Assembly: GCF_000002425.4 (NCBI RefSeq)
Contig: NC_037266.1
Location: forward strand, 7,691,180 to 7,755,179
Direction of reading: 5' to 3'
From: Physcomitrium patens
Lineage: Eukaryota; Streptophyta; Bryopsida; Funariales; Funariaceae
DNA length: 64,000 nucleotides
Numbering within the stretch: the stretch's first letter is position 1; every line of letters starts with the position of its first letter. The notes under the pieces were generated by a model. It was not told where the DNA came from. It saw only the letters and a list, made by a program, of their open reading frames with translations, and searched no databases. Of the stretch, positions 13,401 to 55,555 are shown one piece after another. The translations under genes were made by a program, and so were the position numbers.

Positions 13401-14215
13401 CGTTACGCCCTAAGCCCGCGTGGAAAGTTGTGGAGAACTACGGCGGAGGAAATATTCGCGCCGGTGCCACACTGGCGGCGATGTCGACGGATGGATGAAT
13501 ATAACGTATACATTCATTCAGCGGGGTGGGTTGGTGATGAGTAATCATCCCAAAAAGCCCCGGAAGGAGGGGTGGGACGTGTCCAGCTGGATTCCGCCAC
13601 AGGCCACGCAAGTCCCGCCCCCACCTACAGACACCCTACTCAAAGACCAGGGAGGAGAGCAGGAGTGACGTGCATCAGCGCGGCCAGCAGCCACATCATC
13701 GCAGGAGTCTACCATTCGGTCATGGTGCTTCGACCCGCCCTCGGCGAGCACCAAGTGCGGGAGAGTCAATCCGTCAGAGTGGAAGTCGCGTAAGAAGCAT
13801 GGCGATATTGCTGTTGTCGTCGTCTCTCGCAATTTCCCCAGGTTTCGTCGTATGCGGCCTCGAGGTGGCTTGCTTTAAGAACACCTTGACAATGTGCTAA
13901 TGCAGTCGCTGGTGGTCTTCCTCTTACGTTTCGTCACGCTTGTGCGGCAAGCAAGAAAGCGGTTGGTGAACCTGCGTGTTGTTCCTCCGGAATCAAGGCT
14001 CTTGAGGGAGCCGCCTCCAGATATTTGAATTCGTGCTTATCGCTTTGAGCGCACATCATTCTCTGTTTCTCTGTTTGCGTCGTTGCATACAGCGCTCGGC
14101 CGTTGCAGTGGTGGTGAGGAGGAGGAAGAGTAGGAGGAGGAGTAGGAGGAGGAGAATTGAGTAGTTAGGTGGTCGTTCTTCTGTTCGGAGGGTCGCTCTC
14201 AGGGAGAGTTCAGTC
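13401..14215 (+). promoter_or_regulatory. GC-rich promoter/5' leader of the C2-domain gene
   Basis: Composition switches sharply to GC-rich at about 13.4 kb and stays so up to the ATG at 14216. A purine tract of GGAGGA/GTAGGA units (about 14113-14157) sits in the probable 5' UTR. Overlapping ORFs on both strands here reflect GC richness and show no domain. Confidence 0.4.
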
Positions 14216-15554
14216 ATGTCTGCGGTTTACCGTGAAATTGAGTTCAACATTTTCTCAGCTCAAGATTTGCGAAATGTGCGAATCTTAGGAGGGAAAATGA
14301 GCCCGTATGTGGTGGCCTGGATTCATCCCGATTTGAAGGCGTACAGCCCCGCCGACGTCAAAGGTGGCCCGAATCCCAAATGGAATGCGGATATAGTTGT
14401 TTTTTGTGACGAGGCTTTACTGGACCGTCCTCATGATGCAGTTGTCAATCTGGAGCTCCACGACGCTGGTGGCAGCTCGAACAGGCTTATCGGTTCCGTT
14501 TCATTCCCTTTGTCCGACCTGCCTGGAAATATTTTTATGAACCACAAGGAACATAGCGACCCAGTGTTCTTAAACTTGCCGGTAAGTATGATGTTCCTTA
14601 TCGACTCTAAATCCATTATTAGATCCTGGCGTCTATGTTAACGCGTCTATGTCTTTTTACAACAATTTTTAAATACATTATATTTGATCATGCTTAAAAC
14701 CTCCATATTTGTGCTTGAAATGCTTAATAAATATTTGAAGAGGTTCAAATGATGTTGGCTCTCTCAATGTAAATAAAGTTGCCTTCATTTCTTGAGCCAT
14801 GCTAGACAAAGTTATTAAGTGCTAATAAAAGAAGTAATTATTCTTTTTCTTTTGATATCTTCTAAAGATGTACCAATTTCTCTTTGGATTGAATCTTCTT
14901 CTTTCATTGTAGCAATATAGCTTGAAATAACACCCTCCATAAGAGCTGAATTAAATTCTATATATGCCTTTCAATAACGCTCCACTTTATCAAATTCAAG
15001 TTTGTATTCTTCACTCCATTTTCTATAAATTTGAATTACCTTGTACTACAAATATTGTTGTAAGAGCTCAAAGGCATACCACTCATTGAAAGTGGAAGAT
15101 CTTTGATGCTTCTATTTCATATATATTTGAAACTTAAGTTAATATATATGTTAATGGGTCTTCATTAACTTCTATTTCATATATATATGTTAATGGGTCT
15201 TCATTAACTTGAACTCTAGATTAACTTGAATGTTTTGGATGTGCAGAGGAAATTAGGACTGTGATTGTGCTAAATCATACATTGTGACATCAATTTGTGC
15301 TGACAATTGTATGTTGTGAACCGCAGGTACGAAGACCCTCTGGACGGGAACAAGGAGTGTTGAACTTCTCCATGAGATTAGGAGGAGTGTCACAGAAGTC
15401 ACTCCCACCGGAAGCACGCTATGAGGTTGGCCAGCAGCCTTTAAACAACGAAGGTATGGACAACGGGCTCGGTTGTTGCGGCATTCCTACACATTTTTAT
15501 AAAGAACAGTATGATGTACATCTTCAAGATGGCAGAAATGTAATCGCACATTGA
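14216..15554 (+). CDS. Small C2-domain protein (SRC2-like)
   Basis: Two exons: 14216-14581 (donor GTAAGT) and 15327-15554 (acceptor CCGCAG, stop TGA), phase 0, 197 aa. The first about 115 residues form one C2 domain: IEFNIFSAQDLRNVRILGGK, then PNPKWN, VNLELHDAG and LIGSVSFPLSDL. This is the order seen in plant SRC2/BAP-type C2 proteins, which bind membranes or act as small adaptors in stress responses. The position that usually reads KMDxY (a calcium-binding Asp) reads KMSPY, so calcium binding may be weak or lost. Exon 2 encodes the rest of the domain (VLNFSMRLGG) and a short cysteine-containing tail. The intron of 745 bp is AT-rich, with a short local duplication around 15112-15212. The start is the first ATG after the GC-rich leader and precedes the C2 strand directly. 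Confidence 0.85.
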
Positions 15555-16555: not shown

Positions 16556-17961
16556 GGCAAGGTACTACAGTCACACAACTACGTAAGAGGTTGTGTACGA
16601 ATCGTAGGCTACTTGTCTACATACTTCCGAACTGCTCGTTACGCTTCGATTGCTTCATTTGCCTTCCCCTCGTCGCATGTCAGTTCTTCGAAATTGTCTC
16701 ACTACAATTGAGTTCCACGTCTATGAGCTTTCGAACGAAAACTATCCAAGAGTCACTCGATTCTACACCACAGTATGCTCTTCTCCTATCTCAGCATCAT
16801 CAATATTCTACAGGCCAAATTGCTACAAACTGCGACTTGAGGGAGGCTGAACTCAACCTGTGCATCTGAAGACGATCCGCTGCTGCATTGGTTACTATCC
16901 TCTCTAAATCCACAACTCTCACCTCTTGAAATTCCCTTAAATAAAGTACGGAGTGCATGAATCTGAAATCATTCTAGTGCTGCCGGCGGCCCGATTGAAC
17001 TTTCTACACACCCATAGAGATCCTCGCAGGATCCGGGCGAATAACTGGAGACAGATGATGATTGCATGGACTCAAGAGCGCCGCCTGGAGCTACGACTGA
17101 CGATCAACTGACTCTACATGTGGTGCACGCGCGAGGGAAGCGTGAAACTGCGAATCTTTTCGCAAGTGACAGGAATGTCCTTCGGGTTCATACGCATATT
17201 CCGAACGGCATCTTCCTAGTCTCTCTTGTAAAACCTCGTTCTGGATTTTGTAGATGAAATTTTGAAGTATATATTTCATTGTTGCAGATTTCAATGAGTA
17301 ATTTCTACTATATTGGTTATGGAGCCTGCAGATATTCTTACAGAAAAGTAAAAAGAGAACACAATTATTGCGATTGAGGTCACTACATGATGGGATGAAA
17401 ACTTGCGAAGGCTTCTGGCACGGCTTCTGAACTATTGCAATAGTGTATTCGTAGGATTTGTTGTCACGAACTGAGCTAAATAAGTTGTGGGTACTCGAAT
17501 TAGAATTCTCGCACTCCGTGTGTGCTGCAGTCCCTCAAGAATGCCGTTTCCAGCTATGTAGAATCAGAAAAATCATAGTGTGCTGATGTGGTGTATCATC
17601 TTCTTGTCTGAGGTAAGATAGAGAACCCTCTCGTAGTAAAACACAGTGCTTCTGCATGCAACTCTGGTGTTGAGGTGCAAGTGCTTTTGTGGTATAGAAG
17701 CAGAGAGACTTGTGAGTGCAAAAAGCTTTCTATTGAAATTAGAATAAATATTTAACTTGGAGATGAAATGGCGTGCATTTATCGTCCCACATGCCTCACA
17801 GAATCCACATCATCAAACAATATAGGTTCAAAATCTCCTCTTCAAAATTAATGATATTTTCCAGGTATTACTTTCATGTTAGTCCATGAATCAACGTCAG
17901 CCTTAACTCATGACTGACCCATGAATCAACGTCATCCCTAACTCATGACTAGCCGATTCTA
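16556..17961. other. Spacer between the small - strand ORF and the Nudix/PHPT gene
   Basis: Genic composition but no exon set I can support. It should contain the 3' UTR of the - strand Nudix/PHPT gene near its upper end. Confidence 0.4.
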
Positions 17962-20900
17962 CTATCCCCATGCTAGAGTAATGCTATGAAATGGATACCA
18001 TTGCCTGAGGATCGCACAAGTGACGGAATGATTTGCCAGACCAAATGCTTGCGAGGAACTGTAAACGTGAAGTTTGCGCTCCTTCACATTATGGTCAATC
18101 CGTCCTCCACCTAGTTGGGATACCTGCCATGTGCAGTCCCATTGCTAATTAGTCAATTGTGCGTTGATGCCTAACTCAGATGCAGAAAGTAATCACATCA
18201 CATAAATACAAGTACTTTAATAGCAACCCACCTGAAGACCCATATCCTTGACTTCCTCCTGGGCTGCTGTTAAAATGTCTGAATGGTATGCAAGCTTCGA
18301 ATTGCCTCTAACAATCTGTTTAATCCAAGCAACCCATTTCAGTTATATAAAGTTGATGATCTAATAACCTACAGCTCAAATACAAGTAAACAGAGCCGAG
18401 TAAAGAATATACATTCGGTAAAAGAAACGGTTTCGTCTCCAGTGAGCAAAGAAACATATGCTGAATCTTTTTTAGATATTTCCGCGTCTTACCAATTTTT
18501 CACGGCCCTTGTCATCACTAAGGCACATAAGTACATACTCGAAAACTCCTGAAACGACCGCAACAAACCTGTTACTTCAAGGCGCTCAATATCATGGATT
18601 TTAAATCCATATGGATGTGTGGATGGACTTAAAATGCACTACAAGAAACATGAAACAGGAGAAGAAATGAAGACCTCGAAACAATAAGTTTAAAACAAAG
18701 TGTTTGATAACGAGCCCCACCTTCATCAATATCAGCAGATATGACGTCGTCTCCGGCCCACATGGAGTCCTCACGTTTAGACTCTGTCCACCGGCTCAGA
18801 ATGATGTTGGCAATCGCATAGCTCCCCGGAATGCTAAATTCGACGCTGTGTGGTAATGGATTTCCCTTGAGAACCCATCTCAATAAATCCTTATGAACCC
18901 ACCTTGCATCCTACAGCTTAATTTAGAACATATCCAACATACTAGAAAGACCATCATCACATCCTTAGAGCCTAAAATTCTAAAATGACAAGATTATCAT
19001 TTTCACAACCAGCAAAAAAGTGATTCTAGACTGTAGGTTATATAGCACCAGTTTCCAATCAACAACCAGAGTGACAAAGATTTTGAAGTCTCAACTTTAG
19101 TTTAAATACCTCGAGCTCAAGCTCGTCAGCAGAAGTTTGAGGAAGTGCACGCAATTCATCGACAACGATGAGTTTATCAGGACTGACAGCTACGGCATTA
19201 TTGTCCTCCGATTCAGGACTATAAGGGTCACATTTATTTTTCTTAGCAGAGGCGCTGAAACCCACCATAAGCGATGACGGAAAGGGCCATGGTTGGCTGG
19301 CTATGTAGCTGGTCATTATCAACAGCAGATGTTAGAACAGACTTCTAAATAAAGCAGAAATGACTTGTGTGAACAAGTTAGTTTTTTCATAACGAGCTTG
19401 AACATTCTCTATGAACAAAAGTAGCACAAATGTCTAAAGTCCATGTGTATACAACAAGTAGACAAACAAAACAAAGAATACTGAGATGGAGACAACAAAC
19501 ATGGCTTCTAATTAATAAAGAGACGGGAAAGGCAAAAGTAGAGAAACAAGAAGCACCTCACACTAGTTTGGTCGATTTCTATTCCAGATTCCTCTTTCAC
19601 CTCCCTAGCAACACTCATTTCAAAAGTTTCCCCTATCTCCACAAACCCTGCCAACAACGAGTATCGACCAGGGTTCCATCTACTCTGCAAGCGTGTGAAA
19701 AAAACGATTTTCAATTTTCTTCGGTGCGTTTTTGTATTATGTTATTGGAATGTCATACTACACTTGTCCAGCTAACATGATCACAAAAATTGTTTGAAAA
19801 TACTGGACAAACATCAGGAATCTTCTTACTGAACCTTGGTTTGAAAATAGAAAAATTCACATAACCTAAACCAAATGAATCAACTCAAAGAAGTAGATCA
19901 CACAAAACTCTCACCTGTCGCCCTAGCAGCACATAATTGCCACATGCTACCAGCATGATAACAGCTGGGTCCTGCAAGCAGAATAAAAAGTTTAATTAAA
20001 GACGATACTTTTAGAGAACAATTCCCACGACAAAACATTCTTGCACGTCCTCCGATGAAACAATAATATAACAAATATCATATATACTAAAGGCTGTACA
20101 AGTAATAAGGATACGTGTACTGAAGGCAAGAGTGCAGAAAGATCATGGCAGCGACCGGTCATTATTACTCCCAAAAACAACCAGCTGCCCTCACAAACTA
20201 TCACTCTAAGCGTAGTGAGTGTTAGAGTGACAATATGATTCACGCAATAAATAAGTGAAAAGATCTAACGTAACGATCTTAGTATATACCAGTCTGAAGA
20301 ACGGAGAAATGTACCAGTCTCGGATAAGCAGAATGTTTACAGGAATCTAAAGAACAGTGCAATGAGTGACCACCATCTTTAGCAATCATTCGGCCCCCAC
20401 AACGCCCACAATGCCTCTGCATAATTCAAGAGAACAGCACGAACGATGAAAGCTTTAGCCAACATCAAAATACTAATATCAAGGTTTCAAGATATCTTCA
20501 TCCTATCCCAGCATTTTCAAGCTCATTCTAAAGAGGGACCGTTCAGGAGATAGTTTAAACTTTTGACGTACATTACTAACGCAAACCTGATTTGACTACT
20601 AACTAACTACTTTACTTAGATTCGCAACAGAGAAAGTAGAATCATTGTAAGGTCAGGAGAGGAGAGCAGGAACATGCATTGCGGGTTTGCCATTCCAACA
20701 TCCCACGAGCGTACGCAAGGAGGCCTGCATCTGATGGTTGAAGCTGGGAACCATACCGGCGCAAATCAATCCACTCACCACCATCTTCCCATGCTGGCCT
20801 TTCTTCACCTGCACTGCTACAGTTGGCTTCCGTTTACTTCCACGGGTCTCATAAACATTTCTTACTAGTGTCTTGGGATTCACACAATCATGTCTTGACA

Positions 20901-22163
20901 CTACTAAAAATTAGAACTCTTAATCAAAACACGTCACAATACTAAGTACCTGGGCACTTTCTCCAAGTTCACAGCAAATACCGGAGCTTTGGTGGAGTTA
21001 GATAGTCCAAGAAATACCGGAAAGCCAGCACTTTCATGATCTGCATTAGTCAACCGCAATGCAGAGGCTTCCACTAGAACAGACTTCCCTCCCTTCACTA
21101 AGTTTTTCGCATCCACCAACGGGACCACCTGTTAACCAGACCAAATCATCAAAACAAATTAGAGTCATACAAGCATGTTGAAAGCTTAGAATTATACCAC
21201 CCGCATAACCACATGCACAGCTTAAGGAGAGCAAATGTATTTCGTCTATTATACAGCTCACAATTTAAGGTCGATTCAAGTCGCTGTGATGTTAAACAGA
21301 TTCCCTATCTATTGGAAAAAAATCTGTCACACAGATCTAAGTAAGACGCTCGTACCAGAGCTTCTGGGCTGTCAAATGCTTCAGACAGCTTGGTTTTATC
21401 AACTCTCATCTCGGCTGCTCTGTTAAGTCCAGCATCTGAAAAGAAAATCGCCTGCTGCATTGCAACAAATTTTATTCTTTTACTTGTCTGAACATGATGA
21501 TATGCAATGCTCGCCAAGGTTATACCCAGAATCTAGTGAAGGCCGTGCAGTTGTCAAAAGATGTGGAAGCCACGAAATAGAAGCCATCCAATGGGTTTTC
21601 TAAAAAATTAACCAGGTGATGTCAGTCTTGCTCCCCTTCACATTACCATAGGTATTGTAGTGATTCATATATGAAAGGTTACTCAGTAATGGCTGAGGAG
21701 TGAGGATAAGGATAAGGGTGAAATCCAAAATACCACAAAAACTGAGCTTGAGACCCTCAAAGAGAGAATCTTGACTACTCCTACACGTACAACTTTCAAG
21801 GCGACAATAGGTCGTATGAAGGGTAAAAGATAACCAGAGTTTCAAACTGATGAAACTGTGGACTCTGTATTGAAGTGACTGCTTTCTATCTTCCAAAATA
21901 AAACAAGACTAACGCCCAGAACCAGAGGCAAATTCTATTTGCCCATCAAAATCCAGTTTAAAAGAGGCCAAGGCTACAATTATACGAATTGTGAATCCTT
22001 AGATCTTATACACGTCCCAACTTATAGTTGAAACAGTGTATAAAAGAGACTCTTGACTGAAATGTGTACAAGAAGTAAAAAACTTACGGAGGGGTTGGAC
22101 TCCTGGCTTCTTGTTGCGGTAGCTACAATAGTGACATGTGGACGGATTAACGAACTCTTCCAT
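17962..22163 (-). CDS. Fusion protein: NudC/NUDT19-type NADH pyrophosphatase + 14-kDa phosphohistidine phosphatase (PHPT1/janus)
   Basis: Twelve - strand exons join in one frame (482 aa): 22163-22088, 21435-21356, 21128-20950, 20813-20678, 20416-20315, 19971-19915, 19684-19557, 19308-19110, 18910-18721, 18548-18493, 18315-18232, 18123-17962 (stop TAG). Domains: rudimentary N-terminal Nudix domain from LNRAAEMR (about 27-150); zinc ribbon Cys160, 163, 178, 183; complete Nudix box at 223-245 (GFVEIGE to REVKEESGI); the NudC marker SQPWPFPSS at 257-265; and Nudix tail [13 protein letters not shown]. The same exon continues into SADIDEG, then [20 protein letters not shown] (His412 aligns with catalytic His53 of human PHPT1), LGGGRIDH (433-440) and VYSSSQAFG. 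The Nudix half should hydrolyse NAD(H) or NAD-capped substrates to mononucleotides; the second half should dephosphorylate phosphohistidine or phospholysine. The start at 22163 is favoured because an in-frame stop lies just upstream and phase fits. The exon ending at 20678 needs a GC donor. Confidence 0.88.
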
Positions 22164-23372
22164 CTTGCAGCTACACAATTACCTGTAATGAACGAATTCA
22201 CTCACATTAGGCTTCTAAGAGATTATTCATTTTTACATCGTCATCCAAAAACATTGCATATTGGTATCAACATAGATGGCACCGGTAAAATAAGCTCTCG
22301 AAATATCCGATCACAGGGAAAAGAAAAAACAAAAGACTGGTCGTGAAAGGCATTCAAAGCAGTAGGTTGCAGAGATAGAAAAGGAATGACCTAATTTCAG
22401 AGCCACACGAGCGGAGTCTGAAGCCTGCCCGCCCCAGAAGGAACTGGAAAGAAGGGGCAAATGCCACCCACGAGCAGCCGAAATATTGGCGAAGACTCTT
22501 ACGCACATTGTACCAGCTTTCGTCCCTTCCACTCCTCAATCCTTCCCAAGCTACTGAAATGACATCCACATCTGCACAGAATGTTCAACCACCTCAATTC
22601 CAAGCTTCAATCCACCCAACCCGCACCAATCTAACTCTGGCAATTTCTACCCAGACGTACAAAACCCCGGTGGCACAAGAGATTTCTACTACTGGAAGGA
22701 ACTTAAATCGAAAGAGCATTCGACTAAACAAGCACACGACGAGCACAAAACGAATGCACGACCTCGACAGCCTCGTCAAATGCCCACTTCCTAAGTCCCT
22801 CCCCCCCCCCCCCCCCCACCAATTCAGCAGCTCCACGAAAGAGTAAACACAAAGAGGGGAGGTTCACACCCACAGAACCTTTCCACAAGCTCAACAACTA
22901 ACACCCCAGCTCTGCGAAACCTTTCCTACACTTTCATCAGAATTCCACCCTCCTATTGTTAATGTGGAACAAGAGGACAAATTCTCCCATCGTTATCCTT
23001 TTCTTAGCATTTGACACACTGCATTGGCACGAAAACCTCAAATGTGCGACCCAATCGAACATAACCTCCGAACCAAGATTCAAAAGCGCACGGGCGATTC
23101 CCACTGACCTCTTTAGAAAAATGGGTACAGTCTTCTTCCTACGCCTTGCCACAGAAACAGACTTTCGGAAATTGCGGCCTCAACTGTAAACTCGCAACAT
23201 ATGCAGCTGTGGTAGCAGAGAATTCCACAGCAGCTAACGAATTGCAACGGAGATTGGGATTGACAAAATCAGATTGAAGCATGAGCTCTTGGCACAAGAC
23301 TCGATCGGCATAGCTCATAGGACGTGATGCGTTGGCTGAAGGCACAAGAACACGGTGGCTTTCTGTCCATAT
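22164..23372. other. Upstream region of the Nudix/PHPT gene, with a possible 5' exon
   Basis: Expected to hold the promoter and 5' UTR of the - strand fusion gene. A - strand open frame at 23345-23139 (MPSANASRPMSYADRVLCQE...) could be a non-essential 5' exon or the start of an upstream gene; no family is recognised. A C17 homopolymer lies near 22801. Frames at 22.35-22.57 kb on the - strand look like shadows. Confidence 0.3.
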
Positions 23373-23482
23373 GTATACGTAGATTCAGGATATCATCATA
23401 TGAACATTCATCCATTATGACCAGTGAGTATACGTAGATTCAGGATATCATCTTATGAACATTCATCCATTATGACCGGTGA
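23373..23482. repeat. Tandem duplication of a 55-bp unit
   Basis: Two adjacent copies (23373-23427 and 23428-23482) differ at about two positions. Each begins GTATACGTAGATTCAGG. A C tract follows near 23546. Confidence 0.9.
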
Positions 23483-31519: not shown

Positions 31520-34500
31520 AGCGGGGTTGCAATGGATTAGAGAAAAAAAAGCTCCCTTTTAATTTAGAAGAAAAAATATTATCTACCTAACTTATTGGAA
31601 TGACACAAGATTGTATATTCACTTTTAAGACTATTGACAAGATGAAAAAGATGGACAGATGTTATATTAAATATATTGAGCAAAACTTGAAAGAAAATGG
31701 AGAATTGGTTGAAAATGAATTTATTTCAGGAGCATATGAAGAAGTAGGTTTTGCAAACATTATGGAGAAATTAAATTATCTATTATAATGTAGGTTACAA
31801 GTAGAGAATAGAATTATTAATGTATATTCTAAAGAATTTTATGATGAAATTCAAGGATTTATAGAAAATTTAAGTCGCCAAGAGGTATGTGTTGAAATTA
31901 AGTATAAATCAGTAGCAAGAAAGGTCAAACCAGTGGCTTTGCCACTACCATCTGATTGTAAAGAAAAGATAAGTGGAGCATCGACACAACCAAATTTAAG
32001 AGATTCAAGGAAAATAGGGCATAAATTTATGGATGTTACATTAGATGGATTAAATGTTGGATGCGATGAATTTTTGAAAAAATGTGAAGAAAAATATTTT
32101 AGGAATATGCTTTCATGTCATGGAAAGGCTTTTGCATTTGAAGCACATAAAATTGGGTGTGTTGATCTAAGTATTGTAGCACCTATGGTTATTTTTACTA
32201 TTCTTCATGAACCATGGAATTTGTGACCAATTCTAGTACCAAGAGCACATTTATCTAAGTTAGTAGATTTACTCAATGAAAAGATTAAAATAAAAATTTT
32301 GGAATCATCTATGGCACCCTACTCTAATCGATGGTTTACAGTGCCAAAGAAAAATAGAAAAATGAGATTTATATAAGATATGTAATGCTTAAATAAAGTG
32401 ACTATTAGAAATATGGATTCAAGTCCAATTATGGATGAATTTGCAGAAGCATTTGTTGGAAGAACTATCTACTCAATGGATGATCTTTATTCAGGTTATG
32501 ATCAATTTTAATTGACAATACAAAGTAGAGATTTGACAACTATGAAGACACCATTAGGATTGGTTAAAATGTGTATATTACCACAAGGGGCTACAAATTC
32601 TGTAGCACATATGGTTAATGGAATGCATAAGGTATTAAGAGATTTTATTTCAAGAATAACAATGCCTTTCTTAGATGATGTACCAATTAAGAGATGTGAA
32701 GAAGAAAGAAAAGATGAGACTTTGGATTCAAAGGGATGTAGAAAGTTTGTGACAGATCATATTAAAGATTGTGAGAAGATTTTGAAAAGATTGAAAGAAG
32801 TTCATTTAACCTTATCGGGGGCAAAATCAATGTTTGGAATAAAAGACGTTTTGGTGGTAGGACACATATGTGGTTCATATGGTCGTAAGCCAAGTATAAA
32901 AAAGATTGATATTATTAAAAAGATGAAAGAATATACAAGTACAACGGAAGTGAGAAGATTTTTAGGAACATGTATTTTCTATTATATATGGATACCTCAC
33001 TTTGCACATATAGCAAACCCATTGTATGAATTGTTAAGAAAGAATAAAAAATTTCAATGGAAAGAACAATGGAAAGTTATAGAAAAATTGAAAGAACTTC
33101 TTTCTTCATCTCCAACTTTGAAGAAAATAAATTATGAAGGTGGAAGGCCGGTGGTATTAACAGTTGATACAAGTTCAATTGGAATAGGTTGGACACTTGG
33201 ACAAGATGATGAACAAGGGAATAGATATGTAGTAAGATTTGGAGCAAAGGTATTGAATTCCAAGCAAAAGGCATATGCACAAATCAAAAGAGAATTATAG
33301 GATGTACTAATAGATATAAAAAATAAAAAAGAATACTTGATTGGGACATCAGTAGTTATAAAAATAAATTGTCTACCTTTGATAGGCATGATTACAAGTT
33401 GTTCAACTCCTGATATTGCTATATTGAGGTGGATAGCATATATCAAATCTATGAATCCAGAATTTAAACATATTACAGGGAGAGAAAATTCAGTTGCAGA
33501 TATGTTATCAAGAGCAAGGTATAATGATGAAAAAGAGATGATTGATTTGGAAGATGATGTGGGTACAAAATTTAATACTAATGCATTATCAAAGGAAAAA
33601 GGTATATGTTTGAATATACCATTGGAAATATTTTCAAGAGATTTATATGAAAATGAATGGAAAGATGTTGGAGAGTATTTGAGCACATTAAAGCAACAAA
33701 AAGGTTAGACAGATCAAGAATTTAAGAAAATATATAAGAAAGCCTATGGATATTTTTTACATGATGGATATTTATGGAAGCATCCAAAAAAGAGAAGAAA
33801 AGTACCACAAAAGGTGGTATGTGGTTTAAAAGCTCAACAAAGGATTATTAAAGAATTTCATGAAAATTTATAGGCAAGACATCGAGGTATTTGGGCAACA
33901 TTCATTAAGTTAAGAGAAAAATATTGGTAGAAGAAAATATACAAAGATGTAGCAAAATTTGTAGGATCTTGTGAGACTTGCCAAGTGTATTCAAATATTC
34001 GGCATCAAGATGGGTTACATCCAACATACCCTTTGGCTTTATATTACAAGTGGGTAGTGGATTTAGTGGCAATGCCTATGGGACTTGGACAAATGAAGTA
34101 TTTGGTACTTGCATAAGAAGATTTATCAAATATGGTTAAAGGACGAGCATTAAGAACAAAGGATACTAAAAGAGTATGTCAATTTTTATTAGAAGAGGTT
34201 ATTTGTTGCTATGGTTGTATTAAAAAAATCACGGCGGATAGGGATGAATTGGATGCAAATGAAGCACGAGAATTCTTTAGTAGAATATAAATTAAACTTT
34301 CTTTAAAAACAACATATAATCCAAAAGGTAATGGTAAAAGTGAGTGTGGACATTCACCTATTGTTAAGGCATTAGTAAAGGCATACAATGGCAAAGCACA
34401 TGAATGGCCTAGACTACTACCATTTGTACTTTGGGCAGATCGTACAACTCATAGTATAGTAACAGGTTATATGCCTTCTAAATTAATATATGGGCAAAAA

Positions 34501-34990
34501 CCAGTAATGTTAATAGAAGATGTACCTATATGGAGTGTATTGCCTTGAAAGAATGACCTCAAAAGAGAAGAACTTTTAGCATTATGGATTCAATAACTAG
34601 AAAAAAAACCTAATGATATTGAAGTAGCAATAGAAAAATTGAAAGAAGCAAGGGAAAAGAATAAGGAAAGATTTGATAAAAAACATTGATTATGACCTAA
34701 GGCAATTGAAGATGGTGATTGGATACTAGTTTATGATAGTAGCTTAGACAATCAACATAGCACTATGAAGAGGTTTACAAAGAGATAGTTTTGGCCTTAT
34801 ATTGTCAAAAAGGCATACAACAATGGAACATATTCATTATAATAACTTGATGGTACAGAATTGAAGGTACACATAGTAGGCAAACGAATCAAGTTATTTA
34901 AACAAAGAGATGAAGATATTTTTTTTCATAAAGAATAAACTCCAATACATGATATTGAGATTGGAAAAAACAAGCATATTGAAGATCAAG
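31495..34990 (+). pseudogene. Element B RT - RNase H - integrase (ORF2, broken by nonsense codons)
   Basis: One frame runs from 31495, overlapping ORF1 by about 25 nt in the -1 frame, to about 34.9 kb, interrupted by many stops. RT: LPQGATNSVAHMVNGMHKV and MPFLDDVPIK (catalytic pair Asp-Asp kept). RNase H: VLTVDTSSIGIGWTLGQDD. Integrase zinc-binding and core regions follow (ETCQVYSN, ITADRDELDA). Many stops replace Trp or Gln codons of element C, consistent with C-to-T/G-to-A decay. Confidence 0.85.
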
Positions 34991-35079
34991 AATTAGACCA
35001 AGATAAAGAACATTCTACATCAATATATTGAAAAATTGTTGGTGCATGCCGGAAGATGTACAGATTCAGGGGAGTTGGA

Positions 35080-37025
35080 TATCATGATATAACATGACTA
35101 ATAGGTAAAAGAGTGTAGAAATTATTATAATGTAAAAGATCTTAGTTCAAAGTATTAGAACAAATTATCTTAGAAATATAGTTAATAGTCAAAAGGGTAG
35201 TAAAACAAAAAGGTACCAATGCTGCCTTTTAGAAAGGTGACTTCTACTTGCTTTGTAGGACCATAAGTAAGGCAAAACAAAGTAGATTGGAAAAATAAAT
35301 GATATAGGCATCTTTAGAAGGAAGTTAAGAGTAAATTCTAGCAAAATTTACTTAGAAAAACTAGATATTGATACCCGGAGAGGGCCGGTTATGAACCAAG
35401 ATCGAAATCAGACCCTGAGGCACAAACTGAGTCTCGACGATGACTCCAAGGTTCTTTTGCAAATCGAAGAATGGGATTCGATGGCAGACTAGATAAAGTT
35501 TCTATGAGCATTAGTTTTGGGTGATTTGGATCTCTATTAACTTTGTAAGAACTTTACAAAGTCAAGGTTTGTTTTGGATGACTTGGATATTATGAAATAA
35601 AATAGGATTTACATTTTGGATGATTTCAAGAGTTTTGTAATAGATCTATAGTTGAAATTTTGTGGATTAATGGTAATAGTTGTATTCAATATGTGTTATA
35701 AATTTGAACTTGATCTAATAGTTGAATTGAGGATTATTGAGGTTTAAGAGAGTCAAGATCTCAGAAAGTAGAATTTTAGGTCTAGTGAGGATTTTTAAGA
35801 TTTCTTGAAATCTACTTGTTGGATTGGAGTGAAACTTATGTAAGAAGATATTAGACTTATTTTTCTATGTATATGAAAATTTTGAGTTCAATCGAACAGT
35901 GAAAAAAAGAGATATTGGCTTTGAAAGATTGACATTAAGGTTGGAGAAGGAGGCTGGCCAATACCCAAGCACATTTTTGAGATTATCGTCTACTTGGTAA
36001 TTTTGATCCTTTTAAAACTTATTGTGCTTGTTTTTAACTTAGTTTTTAGAAAGTGTACAAAATTCAAGTTAAGATCAATAGTTTATTCATTAGTTATTGA
36101 AGTTTAAATCTGTTGTTGGAATTACTAGGATTTGGTTAGAGTATGATTTAGGGTTTAGGGTTTGGTTTAGAGTTTAGGTGGGATTTGATTTAGGGTTTGA
36201 TTCAGGGTAAGGATTTGATTAGGGTTTAATTTAGGATTTGGTTGGGGTTTGGTTTAGGATTTTTTTATGATTTGATTTAGAGTTTAGGATTTGGTTTAGG
36301 ATTTAGGGTTTGGTTTAGAGTTTGGTTGGGATTTGGTTTAGGGTTGAGGGTATGGTTAGGGTTTGGTTTAAGATTTAGGATATGGTTAGGTTTTGGTTTA
36401 GGGTTCAGGGTATGGTTATGATTTGGTTTAGATTTAGGGTTTAGAGTTTGATTAGGATTTGATTTAAGGTTAGGATTTGGTTAGCATTTGATTTAAGATT
36501 TAGGATTTAGTTTAAGGTTTGGTTTGGATTTGGTTTAGGATTTGATTTAGGGTTTAGGATTTAGGATTTGGTTTAAGATTTGGTTGGGATTTGATTTAGG
36601 TTTAGGGTTTGATTTAAGGTTTAAGGTTTGATTTTGGTTTGATTTAGGATTTAGGATTTAGGATTTGATTTAGAGTTTGTTCAGGATTTGGTTTAGGATT
36701 TAGGATTTTATTAGGGTTTTTTAGGATTTAAGATTTAGTTAGTTTTGGCCTAAATTTTGAATAAAGTCCAATAGAATTTTAATTAGGATTAAATTAAGAT
36801 TGAATTGAAATATATTTGAGATATATTTGTGATCATTCTAATATTTCTTTAAGATTTCTTATTGTTTCTTTGAAATTTCTTTGAGGCTTCTTTGAATTTG
36901 ATTAAATCTTGTTTAGCATTGTTGGTATTTTATTAGAATTAGGATTTTGTTGTTGCAATTCTCATTCTACCTTCCAAAGTTAGATACTCGGAGCATTCTT
37001 AAGCAAGACTTCACATATTATGACA
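35080..37025 (+). repeat. 3' LTR of element B
   Basis: Starts TATCATGATATAACA and ends TTATGACA. A purine-rich tract (GGGGAG) lies just upstream. It carries its own copy of the TTTAGGG-like array at about 36120-36745. Confidence 0.9.
36120..36745. repeat. Degenerate TTTAGGG-like array in the element B 3' LTR
   Basis: Same composition as the 5' LTR array but with different unit order and spacing, so the array has rearranged between the two LTRs while the flanking LTR sequence stayed nearly identical. Confidence 0.9.
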
Positions 37026-37029
37026 ACGG

Positions 37030-39431
37030 ATGAAGAAGTCCGTAAGATTGATGACAAGGAGTTTTTGATCTTGAGCAAACATCACAAGATTGTACATAAT
37101 CTTTGAGTGCCTTCTATATTTGGAGCCACCAAAAATCCCTGGATATTACTTCCAAAGTTTTATTATATCCAAAATATTGTGCTATGAGAAGATCATGATG
37201 AGCTTGAAGAACAGGTCATCGAGTTATTCCTTCTGGAATATATAGGCGTCTCTTATAATATAGTAGATTTTTCTTGAATTCAAACTTGAAAGTAACATGA
37301 GACTTTGAAGGATTTCCTTTAATATCACGAATAAAAGAATTAGAAGAAATACTTGACTAAACTTGCTTAATGAAAGTTGAATCAATAGTTAGTACTGATT
37401 TTATTGCTCGAAGATGAAGATGTTCTAGCTTCAAGAGAATTGTCCATTGTTGATCGAAAGTAACATCTCCTTCCTTTAGTATGAGGTAAGGTCGTCTAGA
37501 AAGTGCATTTGACAAACCTTACTCTTTTCTCGGTCGATAAGTGATCTTGAATTCAAATCTTGACAAAGATATACTCCAATGAGTTTAGAAATGGTTCAAA
37601 ATATGTGCTCACATAAAATATTCAAGGTTCTTGTAATCTGTATATACAGTGACTAGACTAAGAGCACCTTCTAGATAATGGCACCATTCTTGAAATGAAT
37701 CCACGATTACAAGAAGTTCTTTGTCATGGATTTCATAATTGATCTCGATTGCTAAAAATTTTCTAGAATGAAAAGCTACTAGATGAAGTTTATCATCTAT
37801 TTCCATTTGTGATAATATGGCATTCAAAGCAAAGTCTGATGCATATGTTTCCATAAAAAATGGCTTAGAAAAATCGATGCAATATAAGATTGGTGCAAAA
37901 CCAAAGGCTGTCTTCAAAGCTTCAAATACCACTTCGACTTCTTGATTCTATTGAAGTTTGTCTTTACAAGTCAAACGTGTAAGTGGAACTGCAACTTGAG
38001 AGAAGTCTTTGATAAAGATCTAGTAGTAGTTGGCAAATTCCAAAAAGCATTAGATATCTCTTATCATTTTTAGGATCTTCTAATCTGTAATTGCTTGAAA
38101 TTTCTTAGGATCTATCATAAGTCTATTATTTGAAATGATGTATCTTAAGAAGTCGACTTGAATAGTGTGAAATATATACTTTTTTATCTTGGCATAGAGT
38201 CTCGCATCTCTTAGTTTTTGTAACACATGACAAAGATGAAGTTCATATTCTTCTGTGTTCTTAGAATAGATTAAGATGTTGTCTAGGTAATAGACAACAA
38301 AATCATCTAAAAACTCTCAAAAGACATCATTCATTAGATGTTGGAATGCTGCTAGTGTATTTATAAGTCGAAAAGGCATGACGTTATCTTCAAAATATCC
38401 ATACCTTGTTCGAAACAAAGTCTTCCATTCATCTCTTTCTTTGCTATATACCAAATTGTATGCTCATCATAGATCTATTTTTGTATAGATCTTAGCTTGA
38501 TTCAACTCATCAAGGAATCCAGATATCAAAGGTAGTGGGTACCTATTCTTGATGGTGATTTGTTGAGTCCTTGATAATTGACACACATCCGCAATGACTC
38601 ATCTTTTTTTTTCACGAATAAAATTGGAGCTTTTATTGGAATTTTGGAATGGCGTATGAAGTTCTTGGCTAGATTTTCTTCAATACATTCCTTGAGTTCA
38701 ACCAACTCATTTTGTGATAAACTGTAGATTGATCTAAATGGTGGTTGTGCTCCTTCTTGAAGATCAATTGAGTAGTCATAGGAATGATGTTTTGGAAGAG
38801 TATCCACATTCTTCTTTTCAAATATATCTTGAAAATCTTGATATTGGCTTAGAATGCCACATAAAGTCTTTCCACTAATAGAAATAGGTGCGACATAAAT
38901 GATAGAAGGTGATCCTTCTTTTATAACATACAAGAAAATTCTTGCACCTACAAATATAGGTTTAATTGTACTAGACTTATGACTTTCTACTTCATTAACT
39001 ATGTTCTTGCTTATACTTTCAGAAAAGTCAAGACTACAAGAAGTCCAATCTATTTTAGGATTATATTTTTTTAGCCATGGTAAACCTAAATCTAAAATGA
39101 TTGGATTAGAAAGAAATCTAATGATATTAAATGTTACAATGCAACTATGACCATTAGTTGCTACTTCTATAGGAAGGATTTTATGGGTAACATCTCCTAA
39201 AGACAACGGACGACCATCTATGATTTCTGCATGAATAGGTTTAGTTTTCTTCTATAAAAGTATGTTATATCTTTTAGCAAATTCTTCATCTAAAAAACAT
39301 GTTAAGGCTCTTGAATCTAATAAGACAAAGGCTTTGTGATGTTTAGCTCCTAAAATAAAATTTATCCTAAAACAAGGAGAGGGTTCTAAAGAAAGAATAG
39401 GACCTTCACTAGGTGTTGTATAAGATTCTAG
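37030..39431 (-). pseudogene. Chromovirus A protease/RT/RNase H and integrase N-part (broken)
   Basis: From 39206 downward on the - strand: protease end and linker (ILDLGLPWLKKYNPKIDW), then RT N-part with [37 protein letters not shown]. The RT active site near 38280 reads YLDN instead of YLDD, losing a catalytic Asp. RNase H lies at 37932-37609 (METYASDFALNAILSQ). Frames are broken between these blocks. The integrase resumes on the other side of insertion B. Confidence 0.85.
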
Positions 39432-39435
39432 CCGC

Positions 39436-40764
39436 TGTCGTGTTGTAACACGAGTATATCATGAAAATATAAAGAAAGGAAACTTTTATTAATGTTCAAT
39501 TACCTCGAATATTGGGAGCAACGACCAATTCCAGTGTAAATACTGAGAGGCCAGGTTCAGTCACCCCATTACAGTCAGCCAGGGCATACTGAAATGCTCC
39601 ATTCGATTCCAATAACGGGAGTCAGCAGAAAGAGAAAGGACCAATTCAATGACGGATGAGCCTGGTTCGAAGAGCCAATTGGATCCAATTTCAAGAATCC
39701 AATCCGGATCCTCTTACCCAATATGAGACCTGCATTGGTTGGACAACCCAATGTAGTCTAATTACGGGAAAATCCAGGTCTTACTACGGGCCTCAGCTAG
39801 TCTGACGCGATGGACCAATTTGATCCAATTACGAGAACATCTAGGTCTTATTACGGGCCTCTTAGCCAATCTGACGCGAGGACCAATTTGACCTAATTAT
39901 GCGAACATCTAGGTTACTACGGACATCTTATCCAATATGAGACCTGAATTGGTCGGGCGACTCAATGTGGACCTGAGTACGGGGTTTCGATTCTGTTTCA
40001 GGCTGTCCTATTCTCTGTGCCGTTTCAGGGAACGTTGTTTTCGGTAAATGGATCTCTTAAAGGTAAAAACGGAGGAGAAAGCTCTGACGGCAGGAGCCAA
40101 TTTCGGATCTAAGCTCTGACGGTGGGAGCCAATTCCAGATCCAAGACGGAAGATTGAAGAAATTCAGAGGATAAAGTTAGGAGGAGAATAAGTTTTTGAA
40201 AGGTTTTTTGAAGATTAGGGGGGAGAGGAGCTTCATGCTTCGGGCGGAGAAAGAAGACAGAGAATTGGGTTTTTTTTTTCTTCATAGGATTTTGGGAAGA
40301 CTGAGGCAATCGTTGCTGAAGTCAGTGTTGTAATGGTGAATCAGGATTTTTAATGAAGTGGGTTTGATTACTCTTGACTGTTTTGTGAAATCGAGTTACA
40401 TCTGAGATTGAAGAATTAAAAGGGTGTCTATAGGATTGAGTATGCGGAGTGAATGAAATTTATTGGGTTAATCTAACAAGACAGTCAATGGATACAAGAT
40501 TGTAAGTACAAAGCGGTATCGAAGATTAACAGTTTGAGTTGTTCGGGGTTCTCTGTAACGTTTAGAGACCTACCGGCCGAGACAAAAAGGACTTCAGCGA
40601 GCAGTCGAAGGGGCATCCGTATAGATTTACGGTGTATTCTTGCAATCGTTTATATTCTAACAGTCAAAAACTGATAGACTGCTTCACTATTGGCGAATCT
40701 CCATACTACCTTCTACAGCGAGACGCCCGGCGCATTCTCAAGCAGGAAAGCATGTAATACGACA
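39436..40764 (+). repeat. 5' LTR of element C
   Basis: Longer than the 3' LTR because of extra copies of a subrepeat around 39773-39905 (units containing AATTACGAGAACATCTAGGT and ACGGGCCTC...CCAAT). Confidence 0.9.
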
Positions 40765-42782
40765 ACGGATTGTTATGGGAATTCATGGGAGGTTTTTTCA
40801 CATGCATTGAAAGATGAATATTTCTTGGAAGATACTGATCGCATTACTAAAAAGCTATTTCTGGAATGGATTGAACGGCCTAACAAGAATTTACAAGCAA
40901 CAGAGCTATTAAGGGAATTTGAGAGGCAGTACTCTCAATTATCGAAGGTAGAAAAATTGACATTCGAGCCAAACAAAGTTGATCTATTTCTTCAAGCTGC
41001 TGATGGAGAATTGCAAGGGAAATTAAAACTCCTTCTTCAAGACAAAGAAGAAGATGAAGGATTGACAACAAAGTGGAAGAACGTTGAAGATGCAGTGGGG
41101 TTGCTTACAAAAAGAGAAAGGAGGAAGGATAGGAGAAATATTCTGAAAACAATACAAGCACCCAAAGCTCCAGTACGTACAACACCACCAACAATGCCTA
41201 CAGTTCAACCTTCGACATTCTTATCAAAGAAAGCAGATATGGGGATGGAAGAAATTATACGAGGAATGCGAGATCTTCAAATCAAATTGGCAAGACTTGA
41301 AGAGAATACTTCTACAAATAATTCGAAGAATATTTCGAAAGAAGGATATATACAAAGATGCATTTGGTGTGATGATGCTTCACACACTAGAAAAGATTGC
41401 AATGAATTTAATAATATGATACGACAGGGAATTATTTGCTGGAAAGATGGGAAGATAGCATTGAAAAATACAGAGGATCTTCTTCAAACCAATTTTGGCA
41501 AGGGAGGAATGAGAGCATTGGTTCAAGATTACTTAAAAGAGCATAAAACAGCAGCATGAGAAAGTGCAAGTTATGGTGCTAGAGTAGATGATGACCTTGG
41601 TGGAAGTACGGAAACTAGTGAGTTTTGGGCTTCTGCCATTTCTACAATGCAAGAACGGAAATTACCTCGAGAAGCATTATTGAGGACTGCAGCTACAATA
41701 CGAGGTGCAACAGGTTGGGAGGATCCTGTTGAGTCTCTTTCAGTTCATGCATATTTTGCTAAGAGCCAACATAAAGCTTTGATGGAAGAAAAGAGACGAG
41801 GAAATTTTGATGATACTAGAGAAGAGAATTCTTCTAAGAAACAAACTCGAGGAAATAAGGCTCGGGAGGCAGCTTCATAAGAATTACCTGTAAAGGATAC
41901 CTCAGCATCATTGGAAGAAAAAACATGGGAGACAAAAGATAAGGGCAAATCAATTGCTTATAAACTACTTTCTGATATTGAAGCGGCAACAAATTTGAAA
42001 GGGATGTTGGAAGAATGTATATTAAACGCTAAGGTGGAATTCACATTGAAAGAAGTTTTGGAAATTGCAAAGAAGGAGTTTCATGATGTTATCATTGACA
42101 ACATTAAGCGAAAGAGGCAATTAATAGGCAAAATTGGAATGAGTCATGTTATTGATGGAAGAATATATAAAGAAGAAGAAGAGGTTGATATTGGTTACAA
42201 GCAACCAACAAATGAAAAGAATGGGTATAATCAACGAGTACGTTTCAAAGATTATAGTGATAAGGAAATAGAAACTTTGAGCCATTATACTCGAAAGCAT
42301 TGGGCAAGGGCAACTACTGAGGTATTAGTGAAAGTAGGAGATATAAAAGAACCAATAATTGCTTTAGTCGACCATGGTTCTGAAATAAATCTTATGTCTA
42401 AAGATCTTTATAAGAAGCAAAAATGGCCAATTGATATGGAACATGGATGAGCAGCTAATAACATACGGGGCGAATTATATGGAGCTTGTCCAGATGTCAA
42501 AATTCGGATTGGGGATGTTGCGATGGAGCAATATTTCTTTGTTCAAGATACAACGTCTTACCCGTTGATTTTAGGACAACCTTATATTATGGCAACACAG
42601 ATGGAAACAAAAGTACTTGACGATGGTTCTGCTTTTGTAAGGTACGTAGCAAAGATGGGAGGAAAGTTGTACAATTTCTAACAGTACCTCCTAACCATGA
42701 ACGGAATCGAGATAGGTTGAGGGAGAAACCATTGTCAAAGATTGTTGAAGGATTTAAGGATTTTGGGGAGGTACCACTGTAA
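40765..42782 (+). pseudogene. Element C gag and protease (ORF1)
   Basis: The gag frame is continuous with the 5' LTR end (open from 40690). It matches element B gag at WEVFSHALKDEYFLEDTDR and has an intact CCHC knuckle, CIWCDDASHTRKDC (about 41360-41401). Stops at 41557 (TGA) and 41878 (TAA) and a TGG-to-TGA-type stop at 42448 interrupt it. A one-base loss near 42641 shifts the frame. The protease has IIALVDHGSEINLMSKDLY (DHGSE). ORF1 ends PL-TAA-AGC at 42780-42782. Confidence 0.85.
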
Positions 42783-45700
42783 AGCGAGATTATGGAGGTA
42801 CAAAAGAGGAGGTACTCTCATGAGATGAAGGTGCCTTTAATGCCAGTTTTATTGGTATGTTGGAGAATGGAAATATTATGTATAAGAAAGTTAATGATTT
42901 TAAAAGAAAAGAAAGAAAAAGATTATATGATATTGAAGGACAATTATGCAAGTTAGGTACATTGCAAGATGATGAGAGGATTTTAGGTGATTATGAAGAA
43001 AATGGATTGGAAGATTCATTGGAATTGATTACATCTATTGGATTAAGGGATAATGATAAGATTGTTGAGATTCATTCAAGAGAGGTTTATACCATACTTG
43101 AATCTTTTCAAGCACCAGAAGTCACTGTAGAGATAAGATATAAAACAGCAGATAAGAAGGTAAAGCCTATTGTCGGACCATTACCAGAAGATTCTAAAGA
43201 ACAAATGGGAGAAGCATCAAAAGAAGCAAGTTTAAGAGATCCAATGAGTATTGGACACCAGTTTACTAAAGAGACTTTTGAAGAATTGAAGATTAGTTCT
43301 GATGGTTCTTTATTGCCGGAAGAAATTACTTGCTTCAAAAAGATGTTGGCTAAACAAGGTAGATCGTTTGCCTTCAAATCTCATGAAATTGGGTGTGTGG
43401 ATCCGAATATTATAACACCTATGGTTATCTTCACTGTACCGCATGTACCTTAGAATCTAAGACTGATTCCTGTACCGAGGGTACATTTATCTAAATTGGT
43501 GGAACTATTAAAAGAAAAGATAAAGATAAAAATATTGGAACCCTCATTTGCGCCGTATTCTAGTCGATGGTTTACGGTACCTGAGAAGAATGGATCACTA
43601 CGGTTTATTCAAGATATGCAACTAGTGAATGCAGTAACAGTCAGGAATGCAGGAATTGAACCTATTGTGGATGAATTTGCTGAGGCGTTTGCTGGAAGGG
43701 CGATCTATTCAATGGGTGACTTGTATTCAGGTTATGATCAATTTCAACTTGCCGAAGGAAGTAGAGATATGACAACAATGAGGACACCACTTGGATTGGT
43801 TAGAATGTGCACTCTTCCTCAAGGCGCGACCAACTCAATTACGCATATGATGAATGGGATCAATAAGGTATTGAGAGATTTTATTCTGGAAAAGACTATG
43901 CCTTTTCTAGATAATGTTCCTATAAAAGGGTGCAGAGAAGGAGACAAGGATGAAACTTTAAATAAGAGGAGGTATCGCAAATATGTTGTTGATCATATAC
44001 AAGATTGTGAAAAGATTTTAACTCGGCTTGGAGAAGTTCATCTTACATTATTGGGTATGAAGTCTGTATTTGGGGTATGAGAGGTTGTGATTATTGGACA
44101 TTTATGTAGATCTTACGGAAGAAAACCAGATCCGACTAAAGTTGATGCAATTGGAAGGATGAAAGAGGATTGTGATTCTTTAACAGAGATTTGCAGGTTT
44201 TTGGGTGCATGTGTATTTTATCAAATCTGGGTCCTTCATTTTGCTCACATAGCGGATCCATTATATGAACTGTTACGCAAGGGCTACCGATTTAAATGGG
44301 AAGAAAGGCATATTCAGGCAATGCAAAGATTGAAGAAATTATTGATGTTACCTCCAATATTGAGGAAGGTTGATTATAAGTGCAATAGACTAATGATTCT
44401 TACTGTGGATGCTAGTCCAATTGCCATTGGATGGGCTGTGGGTCAAGATGATTCAAGTGGGAATAGATTTGCAGTTCGATTTGGAGCTAAAGTTTTAAGT
44501 ATTCGTTAGCGTGCATATTCGCAAGTCAAAAGAGAACTTTGGGGAGTTGTTTCGGCTATGAAAGTTGAAAAGGACTATTTGATTGTGGCAGTAGTAGTAA
44601 TTGAAACAGATTGCTTGCCATTGCTTGGAATGATTACTAACTGTTCAATGCCAGATATTGCAATGTTGAGATGGATTGTTTATATTAAGTCACTAAATCT
44701 AGAATTTAAGCATGTTACTAGGAAGGACAATTTAGTAGCAGACATGCTATCTCGAGTAAGATACGAGAGGGAGGACGAAATGGTTGAAGACATTGATGAC
44801 GTCGGATTGAAATTCTATTCAATATCAAATCTCAACAGAGAAGACAAGCTATTTCTTGAAGAATCTTATGAAGGAGAATTATTGGATATTGGTCATTACT
44901 TGAATACATTAACTAAGCAGGGAAATTGGTCTACAGAAAAATTCAAACAAATAAGAAAAAAAACATATGGATTTTTACTTCGAGATGGATTCTTATGAAA
45001 GAGACCGAAGAAAGGAATTGGGATGCCACGACGAGTGATAGACAAAAAAGAAGAAAAACTAAAATTATTGAAGGAGTTTCATGATAGTTTATGGGCAGGG
45101 CATAGAAGAATCTGGGCTACTTTTGCTAAACTCAAGGAACGATATTGGTGGAAAAATATGTATCGAGATGTGCTCTCATTTGTAGAGTCATGTGAAATCT
45201 GTCAATCGTATTCTAATATCCAACATCGAGATAGTCTTCATCCTACGTATCCTCTGTCTATTCATTTTAAATGGATTGTTGATTTGGTTATTATGCCAGT
45301 TGAGTTATGGCAGATGAGATATTTGGTTTTAGCTCGTGAAAATTTATCAAATCAAGTAGAAGGAAGAACATTGAGGACAAAATCTACAGAGGGAATTTGT
45401 AGGTTTTTGCTTGAAGATGTCATTTGCCGCTACGGATGCGTAGGAAAAATCACTGCAGATCATGGAGAATTAAATGCATAAGAAGCTCTTAAGTTCTTTG
45501 AAAGATGTGGAGTTAAACTATCACTGACTACTACTTATAATCCAGAAGGGAATGCAAAAAGTGAACGTAGTCACCCACCGATTGTGAAAGCATTAGTTAA
45601 AGCTTGTAATGGGAAAGTTAAAGAGTGGCCACGGCTTTTGTCATTTGCATTATGGGCTGATCGAACAACACATAGTTTGGTGACAGGATATATGCCAGTA

Positions 45701-54768: not shown

Positions 54769-55555
54769 GTATCCAGAGGGAGCACTCTGGAGCAGGGTTT
54801 CGGAGGACCCAACGGGAGAAGGAGATGGCGAGAGAGCAGGGCATCGATCGATGCTTGTGGAAAACACGCACGCTCCTTCTCCGACCACGCGGTAGTAAAT
54901 TGGCGTCACGATGGCCAATCCGCCATAAATAAAAAAAATACTCTCCTGAGAATCCAAATATAACACAAGCAGAAGTGATTTTACTTTTTAAAATATAAAA
55001 TCCTTTCTTATTACGCCACTGGATTTGAAGCCGTGACGTTCTTAACACTCTTCGTTTCTCACACCAGCTCCATCGCATTGAACGCGTTACTTTAAATTCA
55101 ATCACCGCACTGCGGCGATTCGGAGGCATCCGTTCAATCACAGAAGTGGCCGTTGCAATTGAACCCTGATGTTGATCAATCATCAGTGTGGTACCGAGGT
55201 TTCCACACCATCTCCAGACACTGCTCCCTTTCTTACTACACTCGTGCTTTCATCCCAGCTCGTTGTCTTAATTGAGAGCCAGGTTTGTATTGGAATAGTC
55301 GGAGTGATTCCGGGGGTTGTGTGTAGTTGTGAAGTGAGGGTGGCGTTGCAGTGAATTTGCGTGAATTTTGCATACTGGGGACTACCAGAGGCGTACACAA
55401 GGTTGTGCAATGAAAAAACAGTTGCCTTGGCGTTTGAGTTTGAAGTGGACGAAGTGAATTTGGTGAGCTTAGCATGTGGAATGGGGTTGAGGTGAATGTA
55501 TGAGGTTTAGGGTTTGTAAGTGAGGGACAGGATCTAGAGGTTTGGGGCTATCGAG
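54769..55555 (+). promoter_or_regulatory. Probable promoter and 5' UTR of the VPE gene
   Basis: Genic-composition interval between the minisatellite and the VPE start codon. Transcription start not located; overlapping short ORFs show no family. Confidence 0.35.

Follow-up and report, generated by a model that had tools for sequence, protein, structure and literature searches.

Does a moss gene that appears to run from a Nudix hydrolase into a phosphatase encode a single protein, and what would such a protein do? The gene lies on the minus strand of a 64,000-nucleotide stretch of the Physcomitrium patens genome (NCBI RefSeq assembly GCF_000002425.4, contig NC_037266.1, positions 7,691,180 to 7,755,179; here called the window, with positions counted from its first nucleotide). 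A preliminary description of the sequence proposed an NADH pyrophosphatase of the Nudix family fused in frame to a phosphohistidine phosphatase of the PHPT1 type, encoded by twelve exons from 22163 to 17962, and suggested that the polypeptide couples turnover of NAD(H) or NAD caps to the dephosphorylation of histidine or lysine in proteins. Reconstruction of that model yielded a splice of 1,449 nt in one frame with no inner stop, and a single exon (18910..18721) does combine the Nudix tail with the beginning of the PHPT fold. A search of 5.8 billion database proteins recovered P0001, a protein of 541 residues recorded with 74 contigs, the longest being 2,178 bp; its database source, 'lgn', presumably denotes assemblies of public read sets. 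The translation of thirteen window exons, which together span 4,571 bp, is identical to P0001 except for its first residue, a GTG codon in the window that is printed as Met in the database. Because the contigs are too short for a 4,571-bp unspliced gene, they were taken as spliced transcripts, and the source molecules would thus have been spliced across the Nudix/PHPT boundary. P0001 spans both halves, as one gene rather than two separate transcripts would have it.

The match to P0001 also revised the 5' end of the gene. The first exon of the preliminary description (22163..22088) is genuine exon sequence read in the wrong frame, and its second, as reconstructed, starts 16 nt too late, so that residues 1 to 25 of the product proposed there are absent from the protein and the joining codon also differs. 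The true 5' end consists of exons 22532..22391, 22182..22088, and 21451..21356, the third of which begins 16 nt before the acceptor with which 1,449 nt is obtained. The first ATG is at 22508, preceded by an in-frame TGA at 22538, and the corrected model has 13 exons encoding 533 residues from that ATG. The coding part of exon 1 (22391..22508) matches P0001 and encodes a basic N terminus poor in Asp and Glu: the first 65 residues include 1 Asp/Glu and 8 Arg/Lys, and the AlphaFold pLDDT is below 50 over P0001 residues 1 to 77. From its sequence, this stretch looks like an organelle transit peptide, and it is predicted as such. Near each end of the gene lies a tandem repeat of two copies, with a unit of 55 bp at 23373..23482 and of 35 bp at 17884..17950.

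All four Pfam domains expected of the fusion were found in the spliced product above their curated cutoffs (PF05005, 7.4e-28; PF09296, 1.7e-13; PF00293, 5.2e-11; PF09297, 9e-07). The Nudix-side domains occur in the order PF09296, PF09297, PF00293, and the PF05005 (Janus/Ocnus) match, which the preliminary description had made decisive for the fusion, lies at the C-terminal end with 97 bits against a cutoff of 23. On the minus strand, the rudimentary NUDIX-like domain PF09296 (21361..20690) includes exon 4 (20950..21128), and exon 5 (20678..20813) ends in a GC donor at 20677..20676, opening a GC-AG intron in the zinc-ribbon region that P0001 reads across. Exon 6 (20315..20416) encodes the zinc ribbon PF09297, exon 7 (19915..19971) the start of the NUDIX domain PF00293, exon 8 (19557..19684) the Nudix box (codons 19648..19580), and exon 9 (19110..19308) the NADH-pyrophosphatase signature SQPWPFPSS (19298..19272). 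Both the strict Nudix box GX5EX7REUXEEXGU and the SQPWPFPxS motif are therefore present in the window protein, and P0001 scores 191 bits on the NAD(+) diphosphatase equivalog model NF001299, for which the cutoff is 158. Junction exon 10 (18721..18910) encodes the Nudix end, a linker, and the first residues of the PHPT fold, with the Ocnus match beginning at codon 18745. The PHPT half continues through a strand in exon 11 (18493..18548), exon 12 (18232..18315), and exon 13 (17962..18123), which includes an LGGGR motif and the stop codon. The predicted structure of the PHPT part superimposes on human PHPT1 with an rmsd of 1.6 over 112 residues, at 34 to 36% identity. Profile, sequence, fold, and active-site evidence (the last discussed below) together bear out the fusion, the identity of its domains, and the assignment of the second half to PHPT1. 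The C-terminal residues GY occur in 29 of 39 nonredundant fused proteins, the ten that lack them being from four mosses, four liverworts, Selaginella, and P0016; human PHPT1 likewise ends in GY.

The architecture extends well beyond this moss, as the preliminary description had suggested looking for. The search with P0001 returned 7,613 matches, and among the 120 listed, at least 49 carry PF05005 beside Nudix-type domains according to the precomputed Pfam annotation, although in P0037 the Nudix side shows the NUDIX-like domain only. Fused proteins among these matches come from mosses and liverworts (Ceratodon and Sphagnum; Riccia, Marchantia, and Calypogeia), vascular plants (the ferns Adiantum and Ceratopteris; Selaginella; the conifers Cryptomeria and Taxus), and algae (the streptophyte Closterium; the chlorophytes Coccomyxa, Symbiochloris, Parachlorella, and Picochlorum). 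Four genome codes among them we take to stand for the streptophyte algae Mesotaenium, Spirogloea, Mesostigma, and Chlorokybus. No flowering-plant name occurs among the fused proteins listed, of which 24 of the 49 are named and 4 are genome coded. A fresh PF05005 scan of alignment A1, which holds 61 listed sequences of which 45 are fused, matched 45 of the 61.

Within the 470-Mb moss genome, the PF05005 search gave one match, to this gene, in an exon-wise search that divergent copies can escape; none of 14 control genomes gave a match. A search for free-standing plant PHPT with a 106-residue domain query returned 3 candidates, none at an E value of 0.001, a result that excludes little since the method needs shared 5-residue words. 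A region search with the PHPT part as the query recovered 14 proteins from 59 candidates, every one a fused protein already among the matches listed. P0001 itself had 13 matches in the moss genome, 12 of them in this gene and one, weak, at a second locus (L014), where exons resemble a NUDX19-type enzyme ending VPGPYAIAHHLISTW. At that locus, the PHPT part gave no tblastn match at an E value of 1, and a crude scan of 8 kb detected no motif of it.

The preliminary description knew of no such fusion in plants, a view contradicted by Maruta et al. (2016; PMC5118724), who found an "Oncus" [sic] (Janus/Ocnus) domain in every NUDX19-type enzyme of subgroup II in their study apart from those of Micromonas. 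Subgroup II was described from moss, Klebsormidium, Chlamydomonas, Volvox, Coccomyxa, and Micromonas, with moss possessing both subgroups I and II, and was reported as lost in higher plants (PMC5118724). The window protein fits subgroup II in being an SQPWP enzyme with an extra C-terminal Ocnus domain; the domain set is the same, and the moss genome here also contains two NUDX19-type genes. The window gene is very probably the moss subgroup II enzyme of that study, and the architecture has been known since 2016. The main text of the study presents Janus/Ocnus as a fly testis family and does not use the word "phosphohistidine" (PMC5118724). Among 5.39 million open-access papers, it is the only one found to mention both Ocnus and Nudix, and searches of that literature for phosphohistidine phosphatase or PHPT1 gave no plant PHPT1 among the papers listed. 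What is added here is the wider distribution, including conifers, the congruent trees of the two halves, and the conservation of a PHPT1-type active site with replaced contact residues. In contrast to the loss proposed for higher plants, conifers keep fused proteins, so any loss was not of all seed plants.

Whether the two halves share a history was addressed with trees and statistics computed from 39 of the 49 fused proteins, leaving out the near-identical Sphagnum proteins P0005 to P0010 as well as P0021, P0035, P0037, and P0050 (which look like duplicates, are partial, or have a weak PHPT part). The Nudix and PHPT trees both set the same 12 chlorophyte-type sequences apart from 27 streptophyte-type sequences, and both recover moss, Marchantia-Riccia, fern-type, and conifer-type groups. 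Path distances in the two trees correlate with an r of 0.81, a value reached in none of 2,000 permutations, and 20 of 36 splits are common to both, where chance alone would give 0.15. Many individual branches are weak: of 36, the Nudix tree has 14 starred and the short PHPT tree 3. These sequence relationships are most simply explained by a single fusion that preceded the chlorophyte/streptophyte split and by vertical descent thereafter; the common ancestor of the two lineages probably already had the fusion, which was then inherited as a unit.

A further tree placed fused and unfused proteins together, using 55 of the 61 sequences in A1 (six partial or near-duplicate sequences were left out); it included 16 of the 71 unfused proteins among the 120 matches listed, whereas P0063, a partial Closterium record without a PHPT domain, stood outside the trees. 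The fusion label requires 3 changes on this tree. Behind one 99% branch lie 14 of the 16 unfused sequences, five of them bacterial by name, and with the root placed, by choice, on the bacterial side, the fusion would have one origin. The remaining two, P0034 (from the lycophyte Diphasiastrum) and P0038 (a transcript grouping with conifers), are nested among fused land plants. In both, the resemblance to the family ends with "DELE," at intron 9 (19109..18911), immediately before the junction exon, and therefore look intron retained or truncated. Reading on into intron 9 in the window gives 16 residues and then a stop, which suggests that this intron is retained recurrently, giving a protein that lacks the PHPT half.

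The behavior of P0034 and P0038 could also be taken as a sign that two adjacent genes have been joined by mistaken splicing, and the 5' exon was indeed misread in the preliminary description. As far as sequence can show, that explanation is rejected as extremely improbable: both domains occur in P0001 and at least 48 other proteins among the matches listed (with the above reservation about P0037), the trees of the two halves are congruent, and the P0001 contigs are too short to be unspliced.

The catalytic site of human PHPT1 has been described as Lys21, His53, Ala54, Arg78, Ser94, and Ala96, with Ala54, Ala96, and His53 also acting through backbone NH groups, and substrate binding has been assigned to Glu51, Tyr52, His53, Tyr93, and Met95. 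A review adds His102 to the site and names His53 as the general base, and Lys21 and Arg78 have been implicated in substrate anchoring or transition-state stabilization. Residues at these positions were counted over the 49 fused proteins among the matches listed, with gaps set aside. The catalytic residues are largely kept (His53, 48/48; His102, 48/48; Ser94, 48/49; Lys21, 45/46; Ala96, 44/48; Arg78, 39/49), as is Arg45 (47/48). Tyr52 is kept in 34 of 48. Over the 39-protein set, the human residue is kept at six catalytic sites (with His102 and without Ala54) at a frequency of 0.957, compared with 0.365 over all positions, and none of 20,000 random draws did as well; with the published six (Ala54 in, His102 out), the value is 0.838 and 16 of 20,000 draws did, so that the excess is weaker but holds. 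For the contact set of Glu51, Tyr52, Tyr93, and Met95 it is 0.263, below the all-position average. The usual replacements are Ala, Gly, Pro, or Ser for Glu51; Phe, Ala, or Ser for Tyr93; and Gln, Ser, or Ala for Met95. The PHPT chemistry therefore seems to have been maintained and the specificity has probably changed; with most catalytic residues kept and most contact residues changed, the substrate may differ from that of PHPT1.

The window protein shares the fold of human PHPT1 and retains equivalents of His53 (codon 18285..18283, in exon 12 with the Arg45 equivalent), Arg78 (18102..18100), Ser94 (18054..18052), Ala96, and His102 (18030..18028), which in P0001 are His471, Arg496, Ser512, Ala514, and His520, respectively. 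It differs in that human PHPT1 is a free small protein, in the residues at Glu51, Tyr93, Met95, and the backbone-contact residue Ala54, and in having Glu at the position of Lys21 (GAG, 18540..18538, in exon 11). Lys21 is not treated as defining the PHPT1 family, yet it bears on activity, and its replacement may weaken the PHPT site of this moss.

The reading that we favor, and hold to be somewhat better than an even bet, is that a polypeptide of about 533 residues unites an organelle-targeted NAD(P)H pyrophosphohydrolase with a conserved P-N phosphatase and ties the turnover of reduced nucleotides to phosphohistidine dephosphorylation. It builds on what was computed directly, namely, the joint transcript-derived protein, its domains and predicted folds, their conservation, and the congruent trees; what the two halves catalyze, where the protein resides, how old the fusion is, and which target it acts on are deduced from these. 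The N-terminal stretch would direct the protein to an organelle. The zinc-ribbon SQPWP Nudix half, of the NUDT12/NudC type, would hydrolyze NAD(P)H to NMN(H) and AMP or 2',5'-ADP, as its motif, its fold, and its Arabidopsis relative imply, and the PHPT half would hydrolyze P-N bonds through water, with the His53-equivalent histidine as the general base, as the conserved catalytic residues indicate. NUDT12, NudC, and AtNUDX19 are without a PHPT domain, unlike the window protein. In Arabidopsis, the relative in subgroup I has a preference for NADPH and is located in chloroplasts and peroxisomes, and its loss leads to higher NADPH and photooxidative tolerance (PMC5118724). The most likely role would be to connect organellar turnover of reduced pyridine nucleotides with phosphohistidine dephosphorylation, for which phosphorylated intermediates of nucleoside diphosphate kinase (NDPK) are a candidate target. 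Phosphohistidine phosphatases described as acting on NDPK include SixA of Escherichia coli and human PGAM5.

Several observations weigh against this proposal. Of four fused proteins scored with the NAD(+) diphosphatase equivalog model, one does not reach the cutoff, and the zinc-ribbon CxxCG motif is found in only 23 of 39. Contact residues are rarely kept (Glu51, 2/48; Tyr93, 7/49; Met95, 0/49), and only 12 of 48 retain Ala54, so that a peptide phosphohistidine substrate is not assured. Glu at the Lys21 position occurs in the window protein alone among the 46 fused proteins with a residue there, and Trp replaces Arg78 in 9 of 49 (seven named Sphagnum, the Sphagnum-like P0021, and P0016); as these exceptions fall at anchoring or transition-state positions, activity may be low in mosses. 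Flowering plants are reported with the domain-less form only (PMC5118724). The RHG histidine phosphatases are a family unrelated to PHPT1. Mycobacterial MutT1 likewise carries a phosphatase domain behind its Nudix domain and dephosphorylates phospho-NDK, but its second domain is of the RHG type, unlike the PHPT half here, and it is the Nudix domain, not the histidine phosphatase domain, that dephosphorylates NDK (PMC11784022), which shows that domain labels can mislead. For this reason, and since PHPT1 is said to affect NDPK indirectly, via its targets, organellar NDPK is only a candidate.

The same replaced contacts beside mostly kept catalytic residues would suit a two-step nucleotide catabolism, in which a dinucleotide such as NADPH is cleaved by the Nudix half and a small product (such as 2',5'-ADP or a nucleoside phosphoramidate), rather than any protein, is dephosphorylated by the PHPT half. 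The preference of the Arabidopsis subgroup I enzyme for NADPH (PMC5118724) points the same way, and a long-lasting covalent link between two hydrolases would suit the handing over of a product. We nevertheless consider this unlikely, as the described substrate of PHPT1 is phosphohistidine, evidence for phospholysine being limited, and the phosphates of 2',5'-ADP and NMN are P-O monoesters. A further alternative, slightly less likely still in our estimation, is that the PHPT fold serves, at least in mosses, as a regulatory or scaffolding domain, reading phosphate or phosphohistidine or making dimer or partner contacts with little or no catalysis; the replacements of Lys21 and Arg78 and the report of only the domain-less subgroup in flowering plants (PMC5118724) are consistent with it. 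A mere scaffold would need none of the near invariance of His53, His102, and Ser94 from chlorophytes to conifers.

A broader form of the favored P-N phosphatase reading, put forward tentatively and with the balance of probability against it, is that green plants possess a previously unrecognized PHPT1-type P-N phosphatase that dates from about the time of the chlorophyte/streptophyte split, is fused to an organellar NAD(P)H-splitting Nudix enzyme, has a nonanimal pocket, and was dropped in flowering plants. If this is true, the level of reduced pyridine nucleotides would be linked to dephosphorylation of histidine or of other phosphoramidates, and the loss would be a biochemical step toward flowering plants. 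A review of plant phosphorelays states that no bacterial-type auxiliary phosphatases have been described in plants, and the response regulator ARR22 is said to act as a phosphohistidine phosphatase. The unexplained extra domain of 2016, once recognized as PHPT1-like with most of its catalytic residues, becomes a testable enzyme. Mosses and liverworts are tractable systems, and with the single PF05005 match in the moss genome, this makes a knockout and its rescue with single-site mutants feasible.

Elsewhere in the window, broken frames of long terminal repeat (LTR) retrotransposons with Pfam matches to reverse transcriptase, RNase H, and integrase H2C2 occupy 32512..45481, and GC skew is strong over 28 to 48 kb. 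An exon-like stretch of the legumain type at 55538..55990 matches Peptidase_C13 with an E value of 1.5e-4, just under the cutoff. An open frame at 14165..14641 contains a C2 domain (PF00168; E value, 5e-11) and probably belongs to a moss C2-domain gene.

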